DNA from: a virus
Direction: 5' to 3' (one strand)
DNA length: 64,000 nt
IMG/VR virus record: IMGVR_UViG_3300046328_000221
Span: 30,046-94,045 of that record
Shown: one piece after another, positions 5,749-64,000 of the stretch
How the letters are laid out: every line of letters begins with the position of its first letter
Position numbering within the stretch: position 1 is the stretch's first letter
Position numbers and translations under genes: made by a program
The notes under the pieces: model-generated
Told to the model about the DNA's origin: nothing
The model's input: only the letters and a program-made list of their open reading frames with translations
The model's database searches: none

Positions 5749-6419
5749 TGCTAAGACTTGACGATAAACAATTTTTTAGAGAGATGAATAATATCATGGA
5801 ATACTCTGTAGGGTATCTAGATGGAATTCATCAGGGTAAACAAAAGTTTCTTGGAAGCATTGGTAGCAGTGTGATTGAGACACTAAAGACATACATAGAC
5901 TCAAGTGCAAGAGTTGATCCCCAAATGTTGCACCATGTCTATGAATGGAATCAAACAGGCAGCCCCTCAGCAAGATTATTTGATATTGAATATACTATTA
6001 GTAATTTAGGATTATCTTTTAAATCAAGCTTTACCCAATCATCATCTGTCAAAGATGGATCAACTACCCCATTCTACAATAAGGCAATGATCATGGAAAA
6101 TGGTATCCCAGTTACCATTAAGCCAAAGAATGCTAGTATCCTATCCTTCAATGTTGATGGAGAACAGGTTTTTACAAAGGGACCAATTGAGGTTTCAAAT
6201 CCAGGTGGTGACATGGTTCAAGGAAGTTTTGAGAACGTCTTTGATGAATTCTTTAATAGATATTTCACACAGGCATTCCTTTCTTCAAGTGGAATATCTT
6301 CATATCTAAAGAGTCCAGTTTTATATAAAAAGAATTTAGTAGCAGGCAAGTCATTAGGCAAGTCTGCTGGAGTATCTACAGGATACCGCTGGATCGCTAA
6401 CGCAGGAGTTGTTATTTAA
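5748..6419 (+). CDS. Probable neck/tail-completion protein
   Basis: 223 residues, third in the connector series. An N-terminal helical region (residues 1-50) and a middle with MLHHVYEWNQTGSPSARLFD recall HK97-gp10-like tail-completion proteins. Stop and start overlap with both neighbours. Role inferred from position and weak resemblance. Confidence 0.5.
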   Translation: MLRLDDKQFFREMNNIMEYSVGYLDGIHQGKQKFLGSIGSSVIETLKTYIDSSARVDPQMLHHVYEWNQTGSPSARLFDIEYTISNLGLSFKSSFTQSSSVKDGSTTPFYNKAMIMENGIPVTIKPKNASILSFNVDGEQVFTKGPIEVSNPGGDMVQGSFENVFDEFFNRYFTQAFLSSSGISSYLKSPVLYKKNLVAGKSLGKSAGVSTGYRWIANAGVVI

Positions 6420-7769: not shown

Positions 7770-8459
7770 ATGGCCACAGAAGTATACAAATCAGCAACGG
7801 TACATCTAATAGATGGTACTGAGCTATACATTACCCCATTAAAAATAAAATACTTACGTGAAGTCATGGACACCTTTGAAGCGGTAAAAAGATCAAAGAA
7901 TGATAACGAAGCTATTTCCTGGCTGTCTGAATGTACCAGAATAGCCATGAAGCAATACTACCCTAAGATAAAGACAATAGAGGATTTAGAAGATAGCGTT
8001 GATATTGAAACACTGTATAGGATATTGGATATTGCTGCAGGAATAAAGATAGACCAGGAAAAGACAGAAGAGACAGTACAAGAGCAAGCAGCAGAAAGCG
8101 GTCCTGGCTGGGAAAAGTTTGATCTAGCAAAGCTGGAGTCTGAGGTATTTTTGCTGGGTATCTGGAAAGATTACGAAGAACTAGAAGCATCTCTATCAAT
8201 GCCAGAGCTATCTGCTATTTTGGAATCAAAAAGAGATTTAGATTATAAAGAAAAGAGATTTCTAGCAAGTATCCAAGGAGTTGATCTTGATGAACAGACT
8301 GGAAATAACGAACCAAATGCCTGGGAAAAGATGAAGGCCAAAGTATTCAGCAATGGTAAAACAGAAAATCCAAATGATGTAGTATCTCTACAAGGACAGA
8401 ATGCAGTAAAAGCTGGTTTTGGTATTGGCATGGGATTAGACTACGAAGATCTTGGATAA
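7770..8459 (+). CDS. Tail assembly chaperone, long form
   Basis: 229 residues. The start at 7770 follows the promoter by 6 nt; the frame extends upstream to 7599 but that part overlaps the tube gene. Residues 1-105 match the next gene (shared pattern of hydrophobic N-terminus, PLKI..LRE, TFEA, KQY.P and a terminal A.G). Residues 105-229 are an extra acidic/helical domain with WEKFDLAKLESEVFLLGIWK and a C-terminal FGIGMGLDYEDLG. Position before the tape measure and short/long pairing match the gpG/gpGT chaperones, which in most phages come from frameshifting. Here they are separate genes. Confidence 0.75.
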   Translation: MATEVYKSATVHLIDGTELYITPLKIKYLREVMDTFEAVKRSKNDNEAISWLSECTRIAMKQYYPKIKTIEDLEDSVDIETLYRILDIAAGIKIDQEKTEETVQEQAAESGPGWEKFDLAKLESEVFLLGIWKDYEELEASLSMPELSAILESKRDLDYKEKRFLASIQGVDLDEQTGNNEPNAWEKMKAKVFSNGKTENPNDVVSLQGQNAVKAGFGIGMGLDYEDLG

Positions 8460-8849: not shown

Positions 8850-11800
8850 ATGGCTGAAGATATTCAGTCCAACATTAGAGTCAATATTGACACTAATCAA
8901 GCTTTGGCAAACATTAAACTTTTGCAAAGAGAGCTTTCAGCCTTTCATACATCTTTTGCTAAGGGGTCAGCCACTGCCGTTGCTGCCTCAAGACAATTTC
9001 AGCAAGAGTTAATTAATGATGTTAACGCCACTGGAAAATTTAGTGCCCAATTCAAAACGGTAAAAACCTCTACAGAATCTTTCACTACAGCCCTTGAAAA
9101 GAACAAGCTCTCAATGGGAGAGTACTTCCGCTATGCTGGTGGAGCATCAAGATCATTTGGAAAGCTCTTCAAAACAGAGTTTGACACTATAAATAAGGTA
9201 GCTCGTGAACGTGTTAAAGACCTTCAAACCCAATATATCAAGATGGGTCGTGACGCAAACGGGGCAATGAAGGCTATTGCTATTCGTCCACTTACTCTAG
9301 ATATGGAGAGTCTAGGAACAAAAACAGCAATTGCAGCACAGAAACAGGCATTGCTGAATCAGCTTCTAAAACAAGGATCTACGAATCTTCTAAACTTCGG
9401 TAAGAATACCCAGTGGGCTGGTCGTCAGCTTATGATTGGTTTTACTATTCCACTAACAATGCTAGGTACTGCTGCTGCCAAAACCTTCATGGACATGGAA
9501 AAGCAAGCAATTGCGTTTAAGCGTGTTTATGGAGATATGCTTACAACATCTTCGGAAACAGAAAAGGCCCTAAAGGATGTTCAAAATCTTGCAGTTGAGT
9601 TTACAAAGTATGGAGTAGCAGTAGCAGATACCATGGAGCTTGCGGCAAAGGCAGCAGCGACAGGCAAGACTGGTGCAGACCTTATTGCTCAAGTAAGCCA
9701 GGCGACTAGGCTATCTGTTCTTGGTGGAGTAGATCAGCAGCAAGCACTTGAGGCAACTATATCTTTGACAGATGCATTTGGAACATCTGCAGATGCCTTA
9801 GCTGGAAAAATTAACTTCCTTAACGCAGTTGAAAACCAGACTGTAACATCTATTGAGGACCTAACAATAGCTATTCCAAAAGCTGGTCCAGTTGTAAAGC
9901 AGCTTGGTGGAAACGTTGAAGACCTAACCTTCTTCCTTACAGCAATGCGTGAGGGTGGGATTAACGCATCAGAAGGTGCTAACGCCCTTAAGTCTGGTCT
10001 TGCATCTATGATTAACCCAACAGCAAAGGCATCTGAATTCCTTGCTGGATTTGGGGTAAATCTAAAAGGTATTGTAGAGGCAAATAAGGGAGACGTCAAG
10101 TCAACAGTCATTGAGTTTGCAAAAGCTTTAGACACACTTGATCCACTAAATCGTGCTCGTGCTATTGAGCAACTATTTGGCAAGTTTCAATTTTCTCGTA
10201 TTTCTACATTGTTTAAGAATGTAATAGATGAGGGAACTCAGGCAGGCAGAGTTCTTGAATTAACAAATACATCAAACATTCAACTTGCAGCATTGTCACA
10301 AAAAGAGTTGCAGAGAATATCAGAGTCTCCAATGTTTAAATTTCAAAAGGCTGTAGAAGACCTAAAGAAGTCATTGGCCCCAGTTGGAGAAGAATTCCTG
10401 AAGGCAGTAACGCCACTGATTAATTTTGGAACAGATGTCTTAAAAAAGTTTAATGATCTTGACTCAGGAGCAAAAGCCTTCATTACGAATCTTATTGGAG
10501 GTCTGGGAGTTGTTGGTCCAGTAGCCCTGATGACGTTTGGTCTATTGGCTAACGGAATTGCAAACCTTATCAAAGGCTTTGTGTTTATTAAAAATGTATT
10601 CAATAGAGCTGGAACTGCATCAACAGAGCTAGGCCAACAAACAGCATACATGTCTGCTGCTCAGATTGAGGCTTCGGCAGTTGCAGCATCTTTAAATCAA
10701 ACACACAGCAAGCTTATACAGACATTTAACTTAGAAGCAGGAGCACTAAACTCACTAACAACAGCGTACAATCGCTCACTATCCTCAATGTCTGCCTTCA
10801 CTGGTGTTCCAAGAGGAACTGGAAAGTCAACAAAGAAGTTTGCTGCTGGAGGGATGGTTCCAGGGTCTGGCAGTGGAGACATTGTTCCATCATTGCTTAC
10901 CCCTGGCGAATTTGTTGTAAACAAAAAGGCTGCAAGTCAAAACATGCTGGCACTAAATGCTCTAAATTCTGGTAAAATTTCTAGGTTCGCAAGGGGTGGC
11001 AGAGTTGGCTCTGGACCATCTGGCCGTGTTGGAAAATCGCTAATAACTCTACCAATTGACTATAAGACAAATGTCTCGAATCAATCTGGTGCATTGAATA
11101 TGTCAGACATCACGCCAGATGCAGCATCACTATCATACATGTATGCAGATGAAATACTTAAGCAGTCTAAGACCTCTGCTGGAGCAGTTTCTAGAGAGAT
11201 AATCCAGTGGGAGCAAATAAATAAAAAAGCTATCGATGAGGCGACAAATGCAGTGAATGCTGGAACCCCTGCTGCAGAGGCCTTTAAAGATCTATCAGAC
11301 AAATTTGTTTCTGATATGGAATCTGCAAATGGTCCAGTAAAGAAGTTTTCAGATACTGCTAGATCAATGCTACCACAAATTGAGGCAGATTTTAGAGAGG
11401 CACAGGCAGCAGCAAACTCAATGGGCCTAAATCTTAGGTCTGGAGCAGATACCGCAAAACTAGCAGAAAAAATGCCGAACAATCTCCTAGCTCAGGGAAT
11501 GAATACCCCAGGAAACTTTGGAAGACTGTCTAGGGTTAGGGGGGCAGCAGCACAGATATTCGGAGGCGGTAGCAAGAACTTTGGAAAAACTGGCACTCCA
11601 GCATTTATGATGACAAAGGGTCTAGATACAAAGTCTATAGCCTATGGAACTATGATGACTCAAGAGCACATAGCTGTAACAAAGCTTCAGGAAGAAAACA
11701 GAAAAGCTCTAGCTGGAATAAGAACCCAAACAACCAAATTTGCCCAAGCAGTTCCAAAAGAAACCGTTTCCGCAATAGAAGAAGTCACTCGTCAGGCATC

Positions 11801-58458: not shown

Positions 58459-58634
58459 AAACACAATTTGACATTGAAGACTATCTAGACTATCTAACTA
58501 ACCACCTACGCAAGACCCTTACCAAAGATTTCGGGGCAGATGGTGGACACATAGTAGATCTACTATCTAATACAACTACACAAATAGATGCTATCTTTTA
58601 CTGGATGGCTGATTATCCTGGGGAAGTTAAATGA
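58455..58634 (+). CDS. Small helical protein
   Basis: 59 residues, helical (FDIEDYLDYLTNHLRKTLTK, then DLLSNTTTQIDAIFYWMADY). ATGA overlaps on both sides. Function unknown. Confidence 0.6.
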   Translation: MKTQFDIEDYLDYLTNHLRKTLTKDFGADGGHIVDLLSNTTTQIDAIFYWMADYPGEVK

Positions 58635-58879
58635 GCGGATTTCAAAAAAGAGTAGCATTGCTTGAAAAGTGGGCACCAAGTCTATTGCCAAAGCTAAGGG
58701 ATATTGACGACATGGCTGAAATTATCCTAGACGTTTGGGATGAAGCAGAGGCACATACTGAGGAACGCATTATTAAGTTGCTAGACGAGTTTATTGAAAA
58801 CAGCGATTTACCAGAAGTTGTAGACCGTTTGGAATGGCTTAAAGGCAGTATCAAAGGAAAAACAAATGAGCCTGACTGA
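58631..58879 (+). CDS. Microgene-array protein
   Basis: 82 residues. Contains EERIIKLLDEF and ends in IKGKTNEPD, both shared patterns of this array. The end codons provide a purine-rich site for the next gene. Function unknown. Confidence 0.6.
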   Translation: MSGFQKRVALLEKWAPSLLPKLRDIDDMAEIILDVWDEAEAHTEERIIKLLDEFIENSDLPEVVDRLEWLKGSIKGKTNEPD

Positions 58880-59045
58880 ATACAGGGTTGGCGATAAGGC
58901 TATTTGGAATGCTGGGCGTGAGTATGAACAGGAACGCATTATCAAGTTGCTAAAGCGACTATGGGAAAAGACTCAAGGAACAGATTTGCCAGCAGTAGTT
59001 GTTTTGCCTGAAGCAATCGAACTTATCAAGGGAGAAAACAAATGA
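58866..59045 (+). CDS. Microgene-array protein
   Basis: 59 residues. YEQERIIKLLKRLWEK and a terminal AIELIKGENK. The DNA for IKGE (ATCAAGGGAGAA) is the Shine-Dalgarno of the next gene, with an ATGA overlap. Confidence 0.6.
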   Translation: MSLTEYRVGDKAIWNAGREYEQERIIKLLKRLWEKTQGTDLPAVVVLPEAIELIKGENK

Positions 59046-59272
59046 GTGAAAAATGGAACATTGATTATGATAGCGGTTTTAACTCTGGTGCGGAGCATGA
59101 GCATAAAAAAATTATCAATATTTTAAAAGATAACTTTTCTTTTGCTATGGACTGCGAAACTCAAGAGTGCTTACAAAATGCGGCTAATTCAATTACTTGG
59201 AGCGAACGTTGGCAGTTATCTTTCAATCAACTTATCGAACTTATCAAGGGAGAAACTAATGAGCTTAGATAA
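59042..59272 (+). CDS. Microgene-array protein
   Basis: 76 residues. DSGFNSGAEHEHKKIINILK, a central CETQEC and a terminal LIELIKGETNELR. Again the terminal codons contain AAGGGAG for the next start. Confidence 0.6.
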   Translation: MSEKWNIDYDSGFNSGAEHEHKKIINILKDNFSFAMDCETQECLQNAANSITWSERWQLSFNQLIELIKGETNELR

Positions 59273-59441
59273 TTTCCAAGAGGCTATGGATAGATTGACT
59301 GAAAAGGTTGAGATGCAGGATACTACGCTTAAAGTTCTCTCTGAGGCAGCAGATCGTATTGAGGATAAGCTCAATATTGTGGATATACCATATGGACAAC
59401 ATCCACCACAGAGGTTTCGGGATATCTCTAACGGAGAATAA
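59259..59441 (+). CDS. Small coiled-coil protein
   Basis: 60 residues from 59259; the longer frame from 59142 is a shadow. Mostly one coiled coil (MDRLTEKVEMQDTTLKVLSE), then a Pro-rich end. Last gene of the coupled array. Confidence 0.58.
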   Translation: MSLDNFQEAMDRLTEKVEMQDTTLKVLSEAADRIEDKLNIVDIPYGQHPPQRFRDISNGE

Positions 59442-59490
59442 GTTCGGCGTAAAATTCGGCGGTAAATAAGAGTTTCTACAAGCCACAGGC

Positions 59491-59519
59491 TTGACATTCT
59501 CTAGTATCCCTAGTATAAT
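59491..59519 (+). promoter_or_regulatory. Consensus promoter TTGACA-N17-TATAAT
   Basis: Both hexamers are perfect and the spacing optimal. It drives the single gene at 59563; the leader carries AAGGAAA. Confidence 0.85.
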
Positions 59520-59562
59520 TAATAAACAAAGCCAATATTAAATACATTTAAGGAAAATACAC

Positions 59563-59805
59563 ATGGCAACTGAAGCACAACTAAAAGCAATTAATACTGA
59601 TTATGAAGTTGAATTTCAACACACAGTAAACATGATTCAAGAGAAGATCAATTTCTTGCTTGATCTATATAACAAAGACAATCTATCACCTTTTGATATG
59701 TATCGTAATCTATCAGCAGTAAAATGGCTTGATAGTGCATTAGAGGGTAATGTTGAGGTTATTCAGTTAACCCTAGAAAGAAAGAAACAAAAGGCTAACG
59801 CCTAA
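59563..59805 (+). CDS. Small helical protein with a strong private promoter
   Basis: 80 residues, all helical (EVEFQHTVNMIQEKINFLLD, then NLSAVKWLDSALEGNVEVIQ) with a Lys-rich end. It is the last + strand gene before the origin-like region and is transcribed from a consensus promoter, so it is probably abundant. Function unknown; a DNA- or origin-binding role is only suggested by position. Confidence 0.6.
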   Translation: MATEAQLKAINTDYEVEFQHTVNMIQEKINFLLDLYNKDNLSPFDMYRNLSAVKWLDSALEGNVEVIQLTLERKKQKANA

Positions 59806-59861
59806 AACTTTCGGGGAATCAAGAGGAAGCTTCATAATCCCTAGTATAAGATATAAGAATT

Positions 59862-59897
59862 AACCCTAGTCATAATACACTTTGATTGGGGTTTTTT
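59862..59897 (+). terminator. Rho-independent terminator of the rightward array
   Basis: AACCCTAGTC pairs with GATTGGGGTT (10 bp, two wobbles) around a 12-nt loop, followed by TTTT. Confidence 0.82.
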
Positions 59898-60009
59898 CAT
59901 AGGTCTTTGTCACAGGTTAGACAGAATGCTTTTCTATCAAAGCCATCTACTATATATGCTATAAAGTGATAACCCATAGCACATTTGATCTTATATTTGA
60001 TATAGCTGA

Positions 60010-60160
60010 ATATCCACATATACCAAGTATACAGCATCAGAGCTGATCTAAATACCCTGAAAAGTTATACACATATAGCTAAAAGTTATCCACAAGTTTA
60101 TCTTACTGAATAATTATCTAGATAGACGTAAAGTGGAGATATATGGGAGATAGTGGATAA
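60010..60160. promoter_or_regulatory. Cluster of DnaA boxes
   Basis: TTATCCACA (60087-60095, exact consensus) and TTATACACA (60066-60074), both preceded by AAAAG and 21 bp apart. ATATCCACA (60010-60018) and, on the - strand, TTATCCACT (60160 to 60152) each differ by one base. Confidence 0.7.
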
Positions 60161-60183
60161 TAATACATTATACTATAGGCCGA

Positions 60184-60665
60184 TCGTAATGTCAAGCTTT
60201 TTATACCCATATCCATAAATACTTTTATCCCCAAATCCCCTATCACATTTATCCTGATTTGTCAAGTTTTTATTATATTTATCTACAAATTATCCTATTA
60301 TCTATACAAATCTAGGGAAAAATAGATCATATCGTAATGTTTTTATATCAGACATATCTACCTATGTGTTATTACTTATACTAGGGGGAAGTGTATAGAT
60401 TGTTTGTATACCCTGCCTTCGGCAGCTGGCTATGCCAGGTATATGTTTATCTTAGTATGCTCTATCAAATTGGCATATCAAAAATTGGGGGTATTTAATG
60501 TATGATCGTAATGTCTCTAGTAGTATATACACCATAGTAAAGTATAAGCTTATATGTTTATATAGGGGATATTTGTATATGATCGTAATACCCTGGAGAT
60601 CTGGGAAAAATACTTGACTTTCGTAATGTCTGAGAATCTGGGAAAAATACTTGACTTTCGTAATG
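60184..60665 (+). repeat. Six iterons of TCGTAATG
   Basis: Copies at 60184, 60332, 60506, 60583 (TCGTAATA), 60621 and 60658, all in the same orientation. Four are followed by T. Spacing shrinks from about 150 to 37 bp toward the right. The last two lie in a perfect 30-bp direct repeat (60599-60628 and 60636-60665). Confidence 0.75.
60407..60443. other. Three-way-junction cruciform
   Basis: Outer stem TATAC/GTATA encloses two adjacent perfect hairpins, CTGCC-TTC-GGCAG and CTGGC-TAT-GCCAG. Can form in DNA or RNA. Confidence 0.72.
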
Positions 60666-60679
60666 ATGTTTGGTATAAT
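60651..60679 (+). promoter_or_regulatory. Promoter TTGACT-N17-TATAAT (TGg-extended) with iteron in the spacer
   Basis: A strong promoter whose spacer contains the last iteron. It would make an RNA from about 60686, antisense to the leftward gene ending at 60737. Two small hairpins (CGGC/GCCG and CGCTT/AAGCG) are possible in the first 50 nt. Confidence 0.7.
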
Positions 60680-60736
60680 TCAATTTGGGTCGGCCACAGC
60701 TAGCCGCTTTTGTCAAGCGACTCTCTGCGGATCCCT

Positions 60737-61024
60737 TTACTCTTCTTCTGTGATAGCGGAAAGACCTAGCAATTCATCTAGGTTATCGAAACCATTATCC
60801 TCAACATCTAATGCTGTGATAAGCAAATCGAAAGTTTCACCTATGAACGCAGTTGCTTTTGGTGAAGTATCTACAATGTCATTCGCAATAGCATAGGCAA
60901 GTGGCAAACCTAAGTCGTTGTATTCAATGAAGTCAATGAAGTCCTCATCTTGACGATAGTTGAGCCATAGTTCTGCTAGGATACTAACCTGATTAGCAAA
61001 AGGTGTCGTGGCTGATTCTGTCAT
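60737..61024 (-). CDS. Acidic helical protein
   Basis: 95 residues. The start at 61024 has GGAAAG upstream; the frame continues to 61057 without a site. Acidic (FIDFIEYNDLGLPLAYAIAN, then a Glu/Asp-rich end), likely all helical. Similar acidic small proteins occur across actinophages. Last gene of the leftward array. Function unknown. Confidence 0.62.
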   Translation of the reverse strand: MTESATTPFANQVSILAELWLNYRQDEDFIDFIEYNDLGLPLAYAIANDIVDTSPKATAFIGETFDLLITALDVEDNGFDNLDELLGLSAITEEE

Positions 61025-61202
61025 AGTTGCTTTCCTTTTCTTGTTCTGCTGATTCAATGATAATGGATAAACGCCTGTAAGTCAAATTAGGGTGATTACG
61101 AGCCAGATAGATTCCAACCTTATCCAAATCTAATCTTACATCTGATACAATGTGCGATAACTTTTCTGCTATCTTTTCTGCTTCTGTTTTTACTTTACGC
61201 AT
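60993..61202 (-). CDS. Small basic helical protein
   Basis: 69 residues, beginning MRKVKTEAEKIAEKLSHIVS, with AAGGGAAA upstream. Helical with YLARNHPNLTYRRLSIIIES. Overlaps the acidic gene by 32 nt. Function unknown. Confidence 0.58.
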   Translation of the reverse strand: MRKVKTEAEKIAEKLSHIVSDVRLDLDKVGIYLARNHPNLTYRRLSIIIESAEQEKESNYDRISHDTFC

Positions 61203-61238
61203 TTGTTTCCCTTATTCAGTTATGGACATCTATTGTAT

Positions 61239-61292
61239 CAAAAGTGGAAGGAGAAGTCAAGACCTGCGAGAATCTTGACCTCCCCCACTTTG
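61239..61292 (-). terminator. Long hairpin between leftward genes
   Basis: On the - strand, GTCAAGA/TCTTGAC (7 bp) is extended outward by GGAG/CTCC and AGTGG/CCACT, then TTTTG. Probably terminates or attenuates transcription from 61568. A second weaker hairpin (GCACA.../...TGTGC) lies at about 61296-61322. Confidence 0.6.
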
Positions 61293-61358
61293 CACACAGG
61301 CAACCCCTTACCTTGTGCGATTGACAGGGAGCGAACTCAACCCATCAAGTTTATTTAG

Positions 61359-61568
61359 TTATGCTACTTTCTGTCCCTTACGCAATGTAGCAAGACTAAT
61401 AGAATCAATAAACTTTCCATTACGACGATATACGATTCGCTCTGAAGTTCCATAGCGTGTGTTCCATACTTCTAGATACGGTACCACTGGTCCCATGGCC
61501 TTGCCCTTTTTGGTCAACTTGGTTAGACGCTTTGGTTGTGCTTTACGTGCCTTTGGAAATACTGCCAT
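61359..61568 (-). CDS. Small basic protein
   Basis: 69 residues, strongly basic N-terminal half (FPKARKAQPKRLTKLTKKGK), then a beta part (YGTSERIVYRRNGKFIDSIS). AAGGAG ribosome site. Could bind DNA or RNA; function unknown. Confidence 0.62.
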   Translation of the reverse strand: MAVFPKARKAQPKRLTKLTKKGKAMGPVVPYLEVWNTRYGTSERIVYRRNGKFIDSISLATLRKGQKVA

Positions 61569-61613
61569 TTTATGTCTCCTTATAAATTATTGGGTTATAG
61601 TTGTTGCTATTCT

Positions 61614-61642
61614 ATTATTTCATATTTAGTTGTGTTTGTCAA
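61614..61642 (-). promoter_or_regulatory. Promoter TTGACA-N17-AATAAT
   Basis: Perfect -35 (61642 to 61637) and a 5/6 -10 (61619 to 61614) upstream of the basic protein gene. Confidence 0.65.
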
Positions 61643-61645
61643 TAC

Positions 61646-61981
61646 CTAAAATAAAACTTCTTCGTGATAGACAGGTAACCCATAAAAGATACTCTTCAGT
61701 CTATCGCTAAGCAATGTGTCTTTATCAGCTAAGAAACCATTCAGGCCATACCATAGGTCTGGTTCATGGTTCTGGAAGTATGGGTCATTGTTGATAAGAT
61801 TATTAGACTCAGTAGGAGTTAGTTCAATTGGTGCCCCTAGTTCTTCGTGCGTCGTTGCTCCTTGGTATGAGTTCACCTGATAGATGTGAATGTACCATGG
61901 GCCTCCGTACTCATACTCATCTTCAGCATTCAGTAGTTCACGTTGGAAGATATTGAGATCGTAGTCAAATTCAGTACCCAT
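61646..61981 (-). CDS. Acidic hypothetical protein
   Basis: 111 residues, acidic and aromatic (EDEYEYGGPWYIHIYQVNSY). Central AKDT-like turn absent; the end YGLPVYHEEVLF is strand-like. Overlaps the small upstream gene by one base. Possibly an anti-host or DNA-mimic protein given composition; no evidence beyond that. Confidence 0.58.
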   Translation of the reverse strand: MGTEFDYDLNIFQRELLNAEDEYEYGGPWYIHIYQVNSYQGATTHEELGAPIELTPTESNNLINNDPYFQNHEPDLWYGLNGFLADKDTLLSDRLKSIFYGLPVYHEEVLF

Positions 61982-62103
61982 TAGTCTTGCTCCTCAATCT
62001 CTAGCCATTGAAACGTTTCGCCATCTTCAGTATACTGCGACATGTTTGTTAGTTCTTGCAACCACCCTTGGTCAACAAGTAGTATTACTTTATACTTTTT
62101 CAT
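61981..62103 (-). CDS. Very small protein
   Basis: 40 residues (MKKYKVILLVDQGWLQELTN, then an acidic end). Starts 1 nt after the stop of the gene before and overlaps the next. Position in a tight operon supports it. Confidence 0.5.
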   Translation of the reverse strand: MKKYKVILLVDQGWLQELTNMSQYTEDGETFQWLEIEEQD

Positions 62104-62104
62104 A

Positions 62105-62530
62105 TTAGTACCAAGCCTCTCCTGTGTGGTCTTCACAGCCACAGCAGTTCAAACAATACCCATTCTGCTTATCACAGCGGAATACATCCATAATTAGTTC
62201 ACCGTCTAGAGTCTCTGCTTCACCACATGCTTCACAGCATTCTGGAGACATCTCTAAGTCAATCTCATAGGAGGTTGAATCTATCCACGGTACTTCAGTA
62301 ATAAAATAACCAATACGATTCACATAGTGGAATCCTTCGACAGTCACAGTTCCACCGTCAGTATTTAGATAAGTCCAGATGTTATTAGGCTTGGCTTTCA
62401 TAACAAACTCTAGTTCTTCCCCATACGTCTCAAACATTTGTTGGTCAGGGTCATTACTAAACTTATTAGGCTCAGGCTTGAATTGCTCTACAAACTCTGA
62501 CCAAGTTAGCGATAGTTCGTTAGTAGTCAT
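62105..62530 (-). CDS. Cys-rich protein
   Basis: 141 residues. The C-terminal third has CCEACGEAE, FRCDKQNGYCLNCCGCEDH, a probable double zinc site. The N-terminal part is acidic/aromatic. Transcribed from a clear promoter at 62602-62574. Function unknown. Confidence 0.62.
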   Translation of the reverse strand: MTTNELSLTWSEFVEQFKPEPNKFSNDPDQQMFETYGEELEFVMKAKPNNIWTYLNTDGGTVTVEGFHYVNRIGYFITEVPWIDSTSYEIDLEMSPECCEACGEAETLDGELIMDVFRCDKQNGYCLNCCGCEDHTGEAWY

Positions 62531-62573
62531 TGGGTTCCTATCTTAGAAGTGGAAGTCTTTGGGTTATAAAAGT

Positions 62574-62602
62574 AGTCTACAGGTTATTTCTCTTTTTGTC
62601 AA
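62574..62602 (-). promoter_or_regulatory. Promoter TTGACA-N17-TAGACT
   Basis: Perfect -35 (62602 to 62597), which overlaps the stop codon of the HNH gene, and a 4/6 -10 (62579 to 62574). Confidence 0.68.
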
Positions 62603-62997
62603 GACTTATTTCTAAATTTAATTAGGGCTTCCTTCTTGCATACCTTGCAATCCAGCTGTCCAGTTTTCTTATTTATATAATCTCTCTTATGTCCTCTTTT
62701 GCAATACTCTTTACGCTTATACTCATACTCATATAGGTTGCGTCTTCTAGAGTTCTCACCCTTAGTGACTGCTTCTAAATGTTTTGGATTAACGCAAAGG
62801 GTATTATTACAGAGATGATCAATAGTTAAATCATTTAGTACTTGTCCTGTATAGTATTCATAAGAGAATCTGTGTGCTTTATTACCATGTTCATGCCTAA
62901 ACATTCCATACCCTGCCCAGGTGCTGGCTATCCAATTCCAACATCCAGACACTGGGTCTACGGTATACTTAGATGTAAATCTGTCTATTATTTCCAT
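62599..62997 (-). CDS. HNH endonuclease, leaderless, probably homing type
   Basis: 132 residues. GCWNWIASTWAGYGMFRHEH and AHRFSYEYYTG, then LTIDHLCNNTLCVNPKHLEA carry the HNH_3 core (DHLC...C.NP.HLE). The C-terminus has a zinc pair (YCKRGH, CKVC). It has its own promoter (63012-63004) 6 nt upstream. Confidence 0.85.
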   Translation of the reverse strand: MEIIDRFTSKYTVDPVSGCWNWIASTWAGYGMFRHEHGNKAHRFSYEYYTGQVLNDLTIDHLCNNTLCVNPKHLEAVTKGENSRRRNLYEYEYKRKEYCKRGHKRDYINKKTGQLDCKVCKKEALIKFRNKS

Positions 62998-63003
62998 AAG
63001 TAT

Positions 63004-63012
63004 ATTGTACCA
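63004..63012 (-). promoter_or_regulatory. Extended -10 promoter TGgTACAAT, leaderless start
   Basis: On the - strand, six nucleotides from the -10 to the ATG at 62997. Confidence 0.68.
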
Positions 63013-63025
63013 TAACTATTCATTT

Positions 63026-63133
63026 CTAAAAGTGCATATCACAAGGCACTAGATACCATGAATCGTCAAGCGTGTCAAGAACCCATTTAGGATTTGTTGA
63101 CCAGTTGCTTAGGTCATAGAAGTATGAGTTCAT
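63026..63133 (-). CDS. Very small hypothetical protein
   Basis: 35 residues (MNSYFYDLSNWSTNPKWVLD, then an acidic/aromatic end). AGGG lies upstream. It follows a truncated microgene and may itself be a remnant. Confidence 0.38.
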   Translation of the reverse strand: MNSYFYDLSNWSTNPKWVLDTLDDSWYLVPCDMHF

Positions 63134-63140
63134 ATCCCAT

Positions 63141-63173
63141 TTACCCTGCAACCATTCCCCATAGAAACATCAT
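63141..63173 (-). pseudogene. Truncated copy of a small membrane protein gene
   Basis: Ten codons (MMFLWGMVAG) then TAA. They match the start of the 33-residue membrane protein at 63898-63999 (MTFLWGMVAG), including 24 identical bases. It keeps the coupled ATGA start, so it is a gene remnant. Confidence 0.6.
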
Positions 63174-63442
63174 TTGTTCTCTCCCTTGATAAGAGCAATC
63201 AGATGTTCTCCGTACCAGTTTTCAAAGTCTCCACAGGTGCAGCCAACAAAACCACCTTCAATACCTGCTTCTGGCTCATGCGACTCCATCAGTCCAAAAA
63301 TGCGTTCACGCTCATTGGTAATTGTCTTAGCTTTATATTTTGCTAACCAAAGGTCAAACATTCGGTTTGCGTAAGTGCTATCTACTCTTTCGGCTGAGTA
63401 TGCGTCACGCACATCTGCTGTTTTTGGTATAAGGTCACTCAT
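63170..63442 (-). CDS. Microgene-array protein
   Basis: 90 residues. NERERIFGLMESHEPEAGIE, GCTCGDFENWYGEHLIAL and the terminal IKGENK repeat patterns of the rightward array. Two Cys in CTC. Function unknown. Confidence 0.6.
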   Translation of the reverse strand: MSDLIPKTADVRDAYSAERVDSTYANRMFDLWLAKYKAKTITNERERIFGLMESHEPEAGIEGGFVGCTCGDFENWYGEHLIALIKGENK

Positions 63443-63687
63443 TTTGTTTCTCCCTTGATAAGTTCAAGTGCTAGGTTGATGCCGTCTTTAAGCGACCAAG
63501 CACCATCTTCTTCATAGTAGGCACCCTCAATGCTTTCTAAAAGTTTGATAATCCGCTCCTCGGCGTGTTTCACACCTAACTGAAACTCTGATACCCCACA
63601 ACATTCGCAAGGTTCGGTGAACTCTTTTGGTGGGTTATTGATGATGTTGTAAATGTGTGTGTCTTTGTTGTTGTTATTTATACTCAT
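63439..63687 (-). CDS. Microgene-array protein with Cys cluster
   Basis: 82 residues. EPCECCGVSEFQLGVKHAEE gives three Cys, then EERIIKLLESIEG and the terminal LELIKGETK. ATGA overlaps on both sides. Function unknown. Confidence 0.6.
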   Translation of the reverse strand: MSINNNNKDTHIYNIINNPPKEFTEPCECCGVSEFQLGVKHAEERIIKLLESIEGAYYEEDGAWSLKDGINLALELIKGETK

Positions 63688-63905
63688 TTCTTTTCCTCCG
63701 CTTTCCAGGTATCAATAAGGTCAATTGCCTCACAAAAACAAAAACCCTTTGTGTTGTGAGTTCCAATTGTGCATTTGTTATTTTCTCGTAGCATTGCCAT
63801 CAATTCCTCCTTGGCATACTCTGTGCCATTGAAAAACCCTGTATTGTATTCAGCCTCAATTGCTTTGCCAATTACTTTGTTTTGTTCTTTTGTAAACTCA
63901 GACAT
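63684..63905 (-). CDS. Microgene-array protein
   Basis: 73 residues. AIEAEYNTGFFNGTEYAKEE is the G..nG.eyakeel pattern of the array, and FCFCEAIDLIDTWKAEEKK ends it. The last codons hold GGAGG for the next gene. Confidence 0.6.
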   Translation of the reverse strand: MSEFTKEQNKVIGKAIEAEYNTGFFNGTEYAKEELMAMLRENNKCTIGTHNTKGFCFCEAIDLIDTWKAEEKK

Positions 63906-63999
63906 TTGTTTTCTCCTTACGGTAATCCATCCACTTGAAAAGCAGAATCAGCGGTGAAGCAAGGTATAGCCCTGCAACCATTCCCCATAGAAATGTCAT
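63898..63999 (-). CDS. Small membrane protein
   Basis: 33 residues with one membrane helix (MTFLWGMVAGLYLASPLILL) and a basic end. The start codon is at the very edge of the window. Overlaps the next gene by 8 nt, whose Shine-Dalgarno (AAGGAG) lies in its coding sequence. Confidence 0.55.
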   Translation of the reverse strand: MTFLWGMVAGLYLASPLILLFKWMDYRKEKTNV

Positions 64000-64000
64000 T

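Follow-up and report, generated by a model that had tools for sequence, protein, structure and literature searches.

A putative host-DnaA-dependent replication origin with a bacterial oriC-type layout in an actinophage and its relatives

How do large virulent phages that encode a bacterial-type replisome and no known initiator begin their replication? The locus described here bears on this question. The window, the whole stretch of 64,000 nucleotides that was analysed, comprised bases 30046-94045 of a 94,045-bp IMG/VR virus record, and in it 782 bp of non-coding, low-stability DNA was found between a plus-strand operon ending at 59805 and a minus-strand operon starting at about 61024. These ORF limits agree with an earlier note on this DNA, which had described about 0.8 kb of non-coding, AT-rich DNA between converging operons. 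We propose, with a probability of roughly 0.6, that the region is a host-DnaA-dependent phage replication origin with the layout of the DnaA-box and DnaA-trio unwinding module (BUS) of bacterial oriC; the virus and over a hundred of its relatives would then probably borrow the host initiator to start copying their genomes. Of the papers listed in a literature search, none dealt with DnaA-trios in a phage. If the proposal is true, the oriC unwinding mechanism extends to viruses.

The phage and its non-coding locus

The final 831 bp of the record were identical to its first 831 bp (window 63170-64000 against L083 1-831), an exact overlap through which the map closes on itself at 93,214 bp, although the record carries a linear classification. 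A protein profile scan found genes for WhiB, DnaB, DnaG, DnaE, RecA and ribonucleotide reductase, and the phage is an actinophage because a WhiB gene is present. Its DnaE was about 55% identical to the DnaE of Streptomyces phages, e.g., BillNye, and a freshwater actinobacterium of low GC content is the probable host of the phage. The helicase, primase and DnaE named in the earlier note were confirmed as DnaB, DnaG and DnaE, but the supposed SSB (23834) had no Pfam match. As that note had also stated, no Rep-type initiator was recognised among the proteins scanned, and no DnaA domain (PF00308, PF08299) was detected in 15 phage records, the controls being positive. A lysogenic or plasmid lifestyle was rejected, since the same 15 records contained no integrase, ParA or serine recombinase.

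The region itself gave no match in an Rfam search or in a blastn search against 50,697 phage records, and the neighbouring small proteins gave almost no matches to PHROGs and Pfam. The last gene of the left operon (59563-59805, plus strand) encodes 80 aa and has an 85% identical homologue in L002; a perfect TTGACA-17-TATAAT promoter was present just upstream of it, at 59491-59519 in the window. On the right, the region is followed first by a gene (60737-61024, minus strand) for a protein of 95 aa, which was predicted to be all-helical (pLDDT 89) and whose model had no PDB match with E <0.001 in a structure search. Several small proteins of both operons contained a similar C-terminal tail (LIKGENK / ELIKGETK; window 58631-63687).

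DnaA boxes and the adjoining melting element

The region contained two plus-strand DnaA boxes, TTATACACA (60065-60073) and the consensus TTATCCACA (60086-60094, zero mismatches), exactly 21 bp apart, as had been described in the earlier note. The two near-matches of that note were too few, as four single-mismatch boxes were found. The weak box ATATCCACA (60010-60018, plus strand) lies 55 bp upstream of the box at 60065 and is helically in phase with it; the others were TTATCCACT (60152, minus strand), TTATCCCCA (60225) and TTATCTACA (60279). When the region was shuffled 2000 times with its dinucleotides preserved, at least two TTATMCACA sites on one strand arose in 0.05% of the shuffles, and two such sites within 25 bp in none. 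The motif was not enriched across the whole window (3 seen, 4.35 expected); the box signal lies in clustering, not in count.

The consensus box was followed after 5 nt by the conserved melting element ATCTTACTG (60100-60108, plus strand), which comprises three DnaA-trio triplets, ATC TTA CTG, with the central A on the other strand. Published rules for finding a BUS require a box followed at 0-16 bp by (.A.){3,}, and they admit modules with a single box (PMC8287927). Where a box with up to two mismatches to TTATCCACA is allowed, that at 60086-60094 has none; the 5 nt to the first trio falls within the permitted range, and the window contains exactly the three consecutive NAN triplets that are the minimum, relatives having up to ten. 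A second tandem box at a gap of at most 3 bp is common in the BUS, not obligatory; the gap in the window is 12 bp, and a gap of 3 nt is common in relatives. As read from the sequence, the layout is the pattern of the oriC BUS (PMC6669920, PMC8287927), with which it shares a consensus box, a short spacer before three or more NAN triplets of the complementary strand, upstream boxes in phase and low-stability DNA alongside. The phage module differs in that its genome lacks dnaA, its spacer is nearly always 5 nt, a GTGGAG array and phage-specific bipartite repeats follow, and many relatives are without boxes. The segment ranks as the second least stable stretch of the 93-kb genome at 100, 300 and 700 bp, and within the region duplex stability was lowest over the 100 bp at 60265-60364, also second in the whole genome.

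Under the proposed reading of this virulent-looking phage, host DnaA would bind the phased boxes, and from the last box a DnaA filament would extend onto ATC-TTA-CTG... on one strand and melt the adjoining AT-rich DNA, as in the bacterial oriC BUS. The DnaB-type helicase, DnaG-type primase and DnaE polymerase encoded by the phage would be loaded there. The GTGGAG array and the bipartite GGG-TCGTAAT repeats probably bind further factors, through weak DnaA contacts or a phage protein, and these might, more speculatively, trigger or regulate firing. In AT-rich DNA it is not unusual to find three triplets in register within 16 bp of a box, and the window has no more than the minimum trio; the weight of the proposal therefore rests on conservation among related, non-independent sequences.

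For this comparison the neighbouring gene at 60737-61024 was used as the lead; of at least 92 viral loci found with a relative of it, 80 were kept, and 54 remained after dereplication. Unbiased counting of 8- and 9-mers over 1.8 kb past this gene in the 54 loci recovered TCGTAAT, ATCTTACTGA, TTATCCACA and AAAGTGGAG, with TCGTAAT and ATCTTACTG essentially one-stranded. The core consensus was (TTATCCACA-GGT-)TTATCCACA-GATAA-ATCTTACTGAT-AT-rich-AAGTGGAGNN x3-4. The arrangement TTATCCACA-N5-ATCTTACTG was present in at least 119 viral contigs, whereas 257 Gb of bacterial genomes gave only three matches, including a phage-like contig in a Chitinophagaceae MAG. L205 (CANGYR010000020.1), binned as a Chitinophagaceae MAG, holds the full phage core and is therefore probably a misbinned phage contig.

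The element lay 2-6 nt past a box in 20 of the 22 loci with clustered boxes, and the spacer between box and element was 5 nt in 20 cases, 3 nt in three and 14-16 nt in four. Loci gathered without requiring ATCTTACTG contained ATATTACTG or ATGTTACTG at the same spacing (ATA TTA CTG / ATG TTA CTG), which differ from ATCTTACTG only at the outer base of a triplet. In the free triplets 3-6 (counting from 0), the T fraction of the middle base was 0.81, 0.81, 0.71 and 0.52 (mean 0.71), and the means of the two outer positions were 0.44 and 0.36. Box spacings clustered at 11/12, 21, 33/34, 43-45 and 55 bp, and box-to-box helical phasing was strongest at about 10.75 bp (vector strength 0.86). Because of the kinship between these sequences, the counts do not represent independent events. 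The search of related phages that the earlier note had called for thus found the box-element layout at a fixed spacing and at the same locus in many of them. That note had proposed host DnaA together with a phage iteron-binding protein, and the host-DnaA half is much strengthened by the fixed spacing, the phasing, the trio register, the conservation of the locus and the lack of a DnaA gene in the 15 records. The conservation of a DnaA-box/DnaA-trio module across more than a hundred phage contigs also makes the start of replication directly testable.

Repeats, box-less relatives and the choice of initiator

Boxes in the slot beside the element were either exact or absent among the 33 dereplicated loci with [AG]TCTTACTG, and 16 of these had no box in or near it. 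About half of the element-bearing relatives thus lack a box in the slot, and DnaA therefore cannot be universal. Twelve loci contained the element and the GTGGAG array with no box at the element; the initiator may accordingly be exchangeable, as box-less relatives retain the melting element. We suggest, tentatively, that a large actinophage group carries a portable strand-opening module of the oriC type for which the initiator can be exchanged: some members would use host DnaA through rigidly placed boxes, and sister phages would have kept the element and the array, lost the boxes and be opened otherwise. The conserved module would also supply natural variants, with and without boxes, in which the needs of a trio element can be dissected.

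The box-less relatives also favour another, on balance unlikely, explanation, namely that the origin is fired by a phage initiator acting on the GTGGAG array or on the TCGTAAT bipartite repeats, with DnaA auxiliary or dispensable. In the window only a remnant of the array was found (AAAGTGGAG ... AGTGGATAA, 60130-60160, plus strand), relatives having three or four copies with a 10-bp period; AGTGGATAA matches a DnaA box in reverse orientation at all but one position. The TCGTAAT repeats had been described as six same-direction copies of TCGTAATG. They are indeed one-stranded, but five were exact (60184, 60332, 60506, 60621, 60658) and the sixth was TCGTAATA (60583). None of the 2000 dinucleotide-shuffled versions of the region contained six TCGTAATR sites. 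The supposed iterons are part of a 25-bp bipartite repeat, GGG(G/A)W4...TCGTAAT, in which a GGG half is followed by TCGTAAT as the 3' half and the half-site starts are 17-19 nt apart. The copy at 60184-60191 lacks the GGG half-site; the five bipartite copies, all on the plus strand, were found at 60315-60339 (GGGAAAAATA...TCGTAATG), 60488-60513, 60565-60590 (with TCGTAATA), 60603-60628 and 60640-60665, the last overlapping a promoter. The repeat is locus-specific and one-stranded, because all five copies in the genome lie at 60315-60665 on the plus strand and because, across the 54 loci, 121 sites were within the region against 25 elsewhere.

This restriction to one locus of the genome would suit a phage initiator. 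No initiator gene was recognised among the proteins scanned, however, and the exactness and rigid placing of the boxes, when present, suggest that they are really used. In iteron origins such as P1 oriR and pSC101, DnaA boxes adjoin repeats and a melting segment rich in AT, an arrangement that the phage region shares. It differs from them in its irregular, bipartite repeats, which lie 37-174 bp apart in place of regular tandem iterons, in the missing ParA, integrase and serine recombinase, and in having no recognised Rep gene among the proteins scanned. The iteron-binding half of the earlier proposal is accordingly upheld as to the specificity and conservation of the TCGTAATG repeats and weakened by their irregular spacing and bipartite form; they are putative binding sites and could be operators. 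An assignment of the TCGTAAT repeats to ordinary sigma-70 promoters was rejected, as 17-19 nt from start to start is too short and no -10 hexamer is present.

Terminal repeats, promoters and other box pairs

A serious rival to the host-DnaA origin, which we nevertheless consider rather improbable, is injection-stop or entry control of the T5 type, in which a long terminal repeat enters first and non-coding hairpins, repeats and DnaA boxes pause the transfer until early proteins are made. It arises from the end repeat of the relative G002 (124,540 bp) and from the DnaA-box-like sites in the 10.2-kb terminal repeat of T5 and in its injection stop signal (ISS). In G002 the region lies within an 8517-bp repeat that is identical at both contig ends and may be an assembly self-overlap. 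In 6 of 15 records the contig stopped about 4-6 kb from the module, always on the same side, which would fit a physical end there; two copies would enter with every virion wherever the module is part of the terminal repeats. Terminal repeats of about 11 kb are known in the cluster BE1 Streptomyces phages (PMC5764925).

The T5 left terminal repeat resembles the phage region in its non-coding, repeat-bearing DNA and in its DnaA-box-like pairs at 12-bp spacing: two such pairs are in the iss (9137-10146), and further boxes are at 6118 and 6191 of the terminal repeat. The ISS is described as carrying repeats, inverted repeats and DnaA boxes (2026 paper, PMC13250531). The region also contains the three-way cruciform reported earlier, with two hairpins on an outer stem (60407-60443, -8.9 kcal/mol, z -3.3). 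An injection stop, however, needs neither a fixed box-to-triplet spacing nor a triplet register, and the T5 boxes precede a LexA-like palindrome instead of an element of the ATCTTACTG type, in a phage of a gammaproteobacterial host in which their role is ascribed to DNA entry and not to replication. In T5 (L208; 6095-6300 and 9301-9560) the LexA-box-like palindromes (TACTGTATATTTATACAGTA) were found 4-5 nt after the DnaA-box-like sites; the likeness of the T5 post-box sequence to ATCTTACTG was rejected as homology, being explained by this palindrome.

Two strong sigma-70-like promoters flank the repeats. The TTGACT-17-TATAAT promoter at 60651-60679 (plus strand) had been noted before, and a perfect TTGACA-17-TATAAT promoter at 60167-60195 (minus strand), overlapping the first TCGTAATG copy, was absent from the earlier note. 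A small RNA from the plus-strand promoter was rejected, as its fold was no better than those of shuffles. These promoters, the two TCGTAATG copies that overlap them and the intergenic position of DnaA-box pairs elsewhere would suit a DnaA-responsive promoter region governing early transcription, but this is very unlikely because the boxes (60065-60094) lie away from both promoters, the plus-strand promoter reads antisense into the right operon and the triplet register is left unexplained.

Tandem or inverted box pairs without a melting element, mostly 12 bp apart, were found in intergenic DNA of the right arm in G000 (8109/8121, spanning 8109-8129, and 9165/9177) and also in G001, G003, G005, G008 and L209-L224; DnaA may therefore have other roles. 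The right-arm pairs of the five G genomes could point to a sink in which clustered boxes titrate host DnaA and halt new rounds of host replication, a highly doubtful reading, since titration could do without the melting element, which accompanies the cluster at this locus alone, and this locus has only two strong boxes in this genome. The GC-skew plot suggested in the earlier note gave no origin signature for the region. Cumulative skew follows the gene strand; on the record it peaks at 72-92 kb and reaches its minimum at about 9.1 kb, and the region lies at 90.1 kb. A bacterial chromosome origin would be at the skew minimum of a cellular chromosome, and this is a phage genome with its minimum elsewhere. 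The inverted box pair 9165/9177 (9165-9185, outside the window) coincides with that minimum and with the point of divergent transcription.

Among cultured phages, the Streptomyces phages Faust (Stanwilliamsviridae), Moab, Sham and Patelgo belong broadly to the same kind as the closest DnaE relatives and share an exact TTATCCACAGGTTTATCCACAG near the right end, which in Faust lies in about 1.5 kb of non-coding DNA. Faust differs in having no ATCTTACTG after the boxes, in its TTGAA/TTCAA-type repeats and in the single copy in its GenBank record. In Microbacterium phages of about 62 kb (Hyperion, Rudy and others; H112-H116, H136, H139), tandem DnaA boxes were present at a distance of about 345 bp from the left record end.
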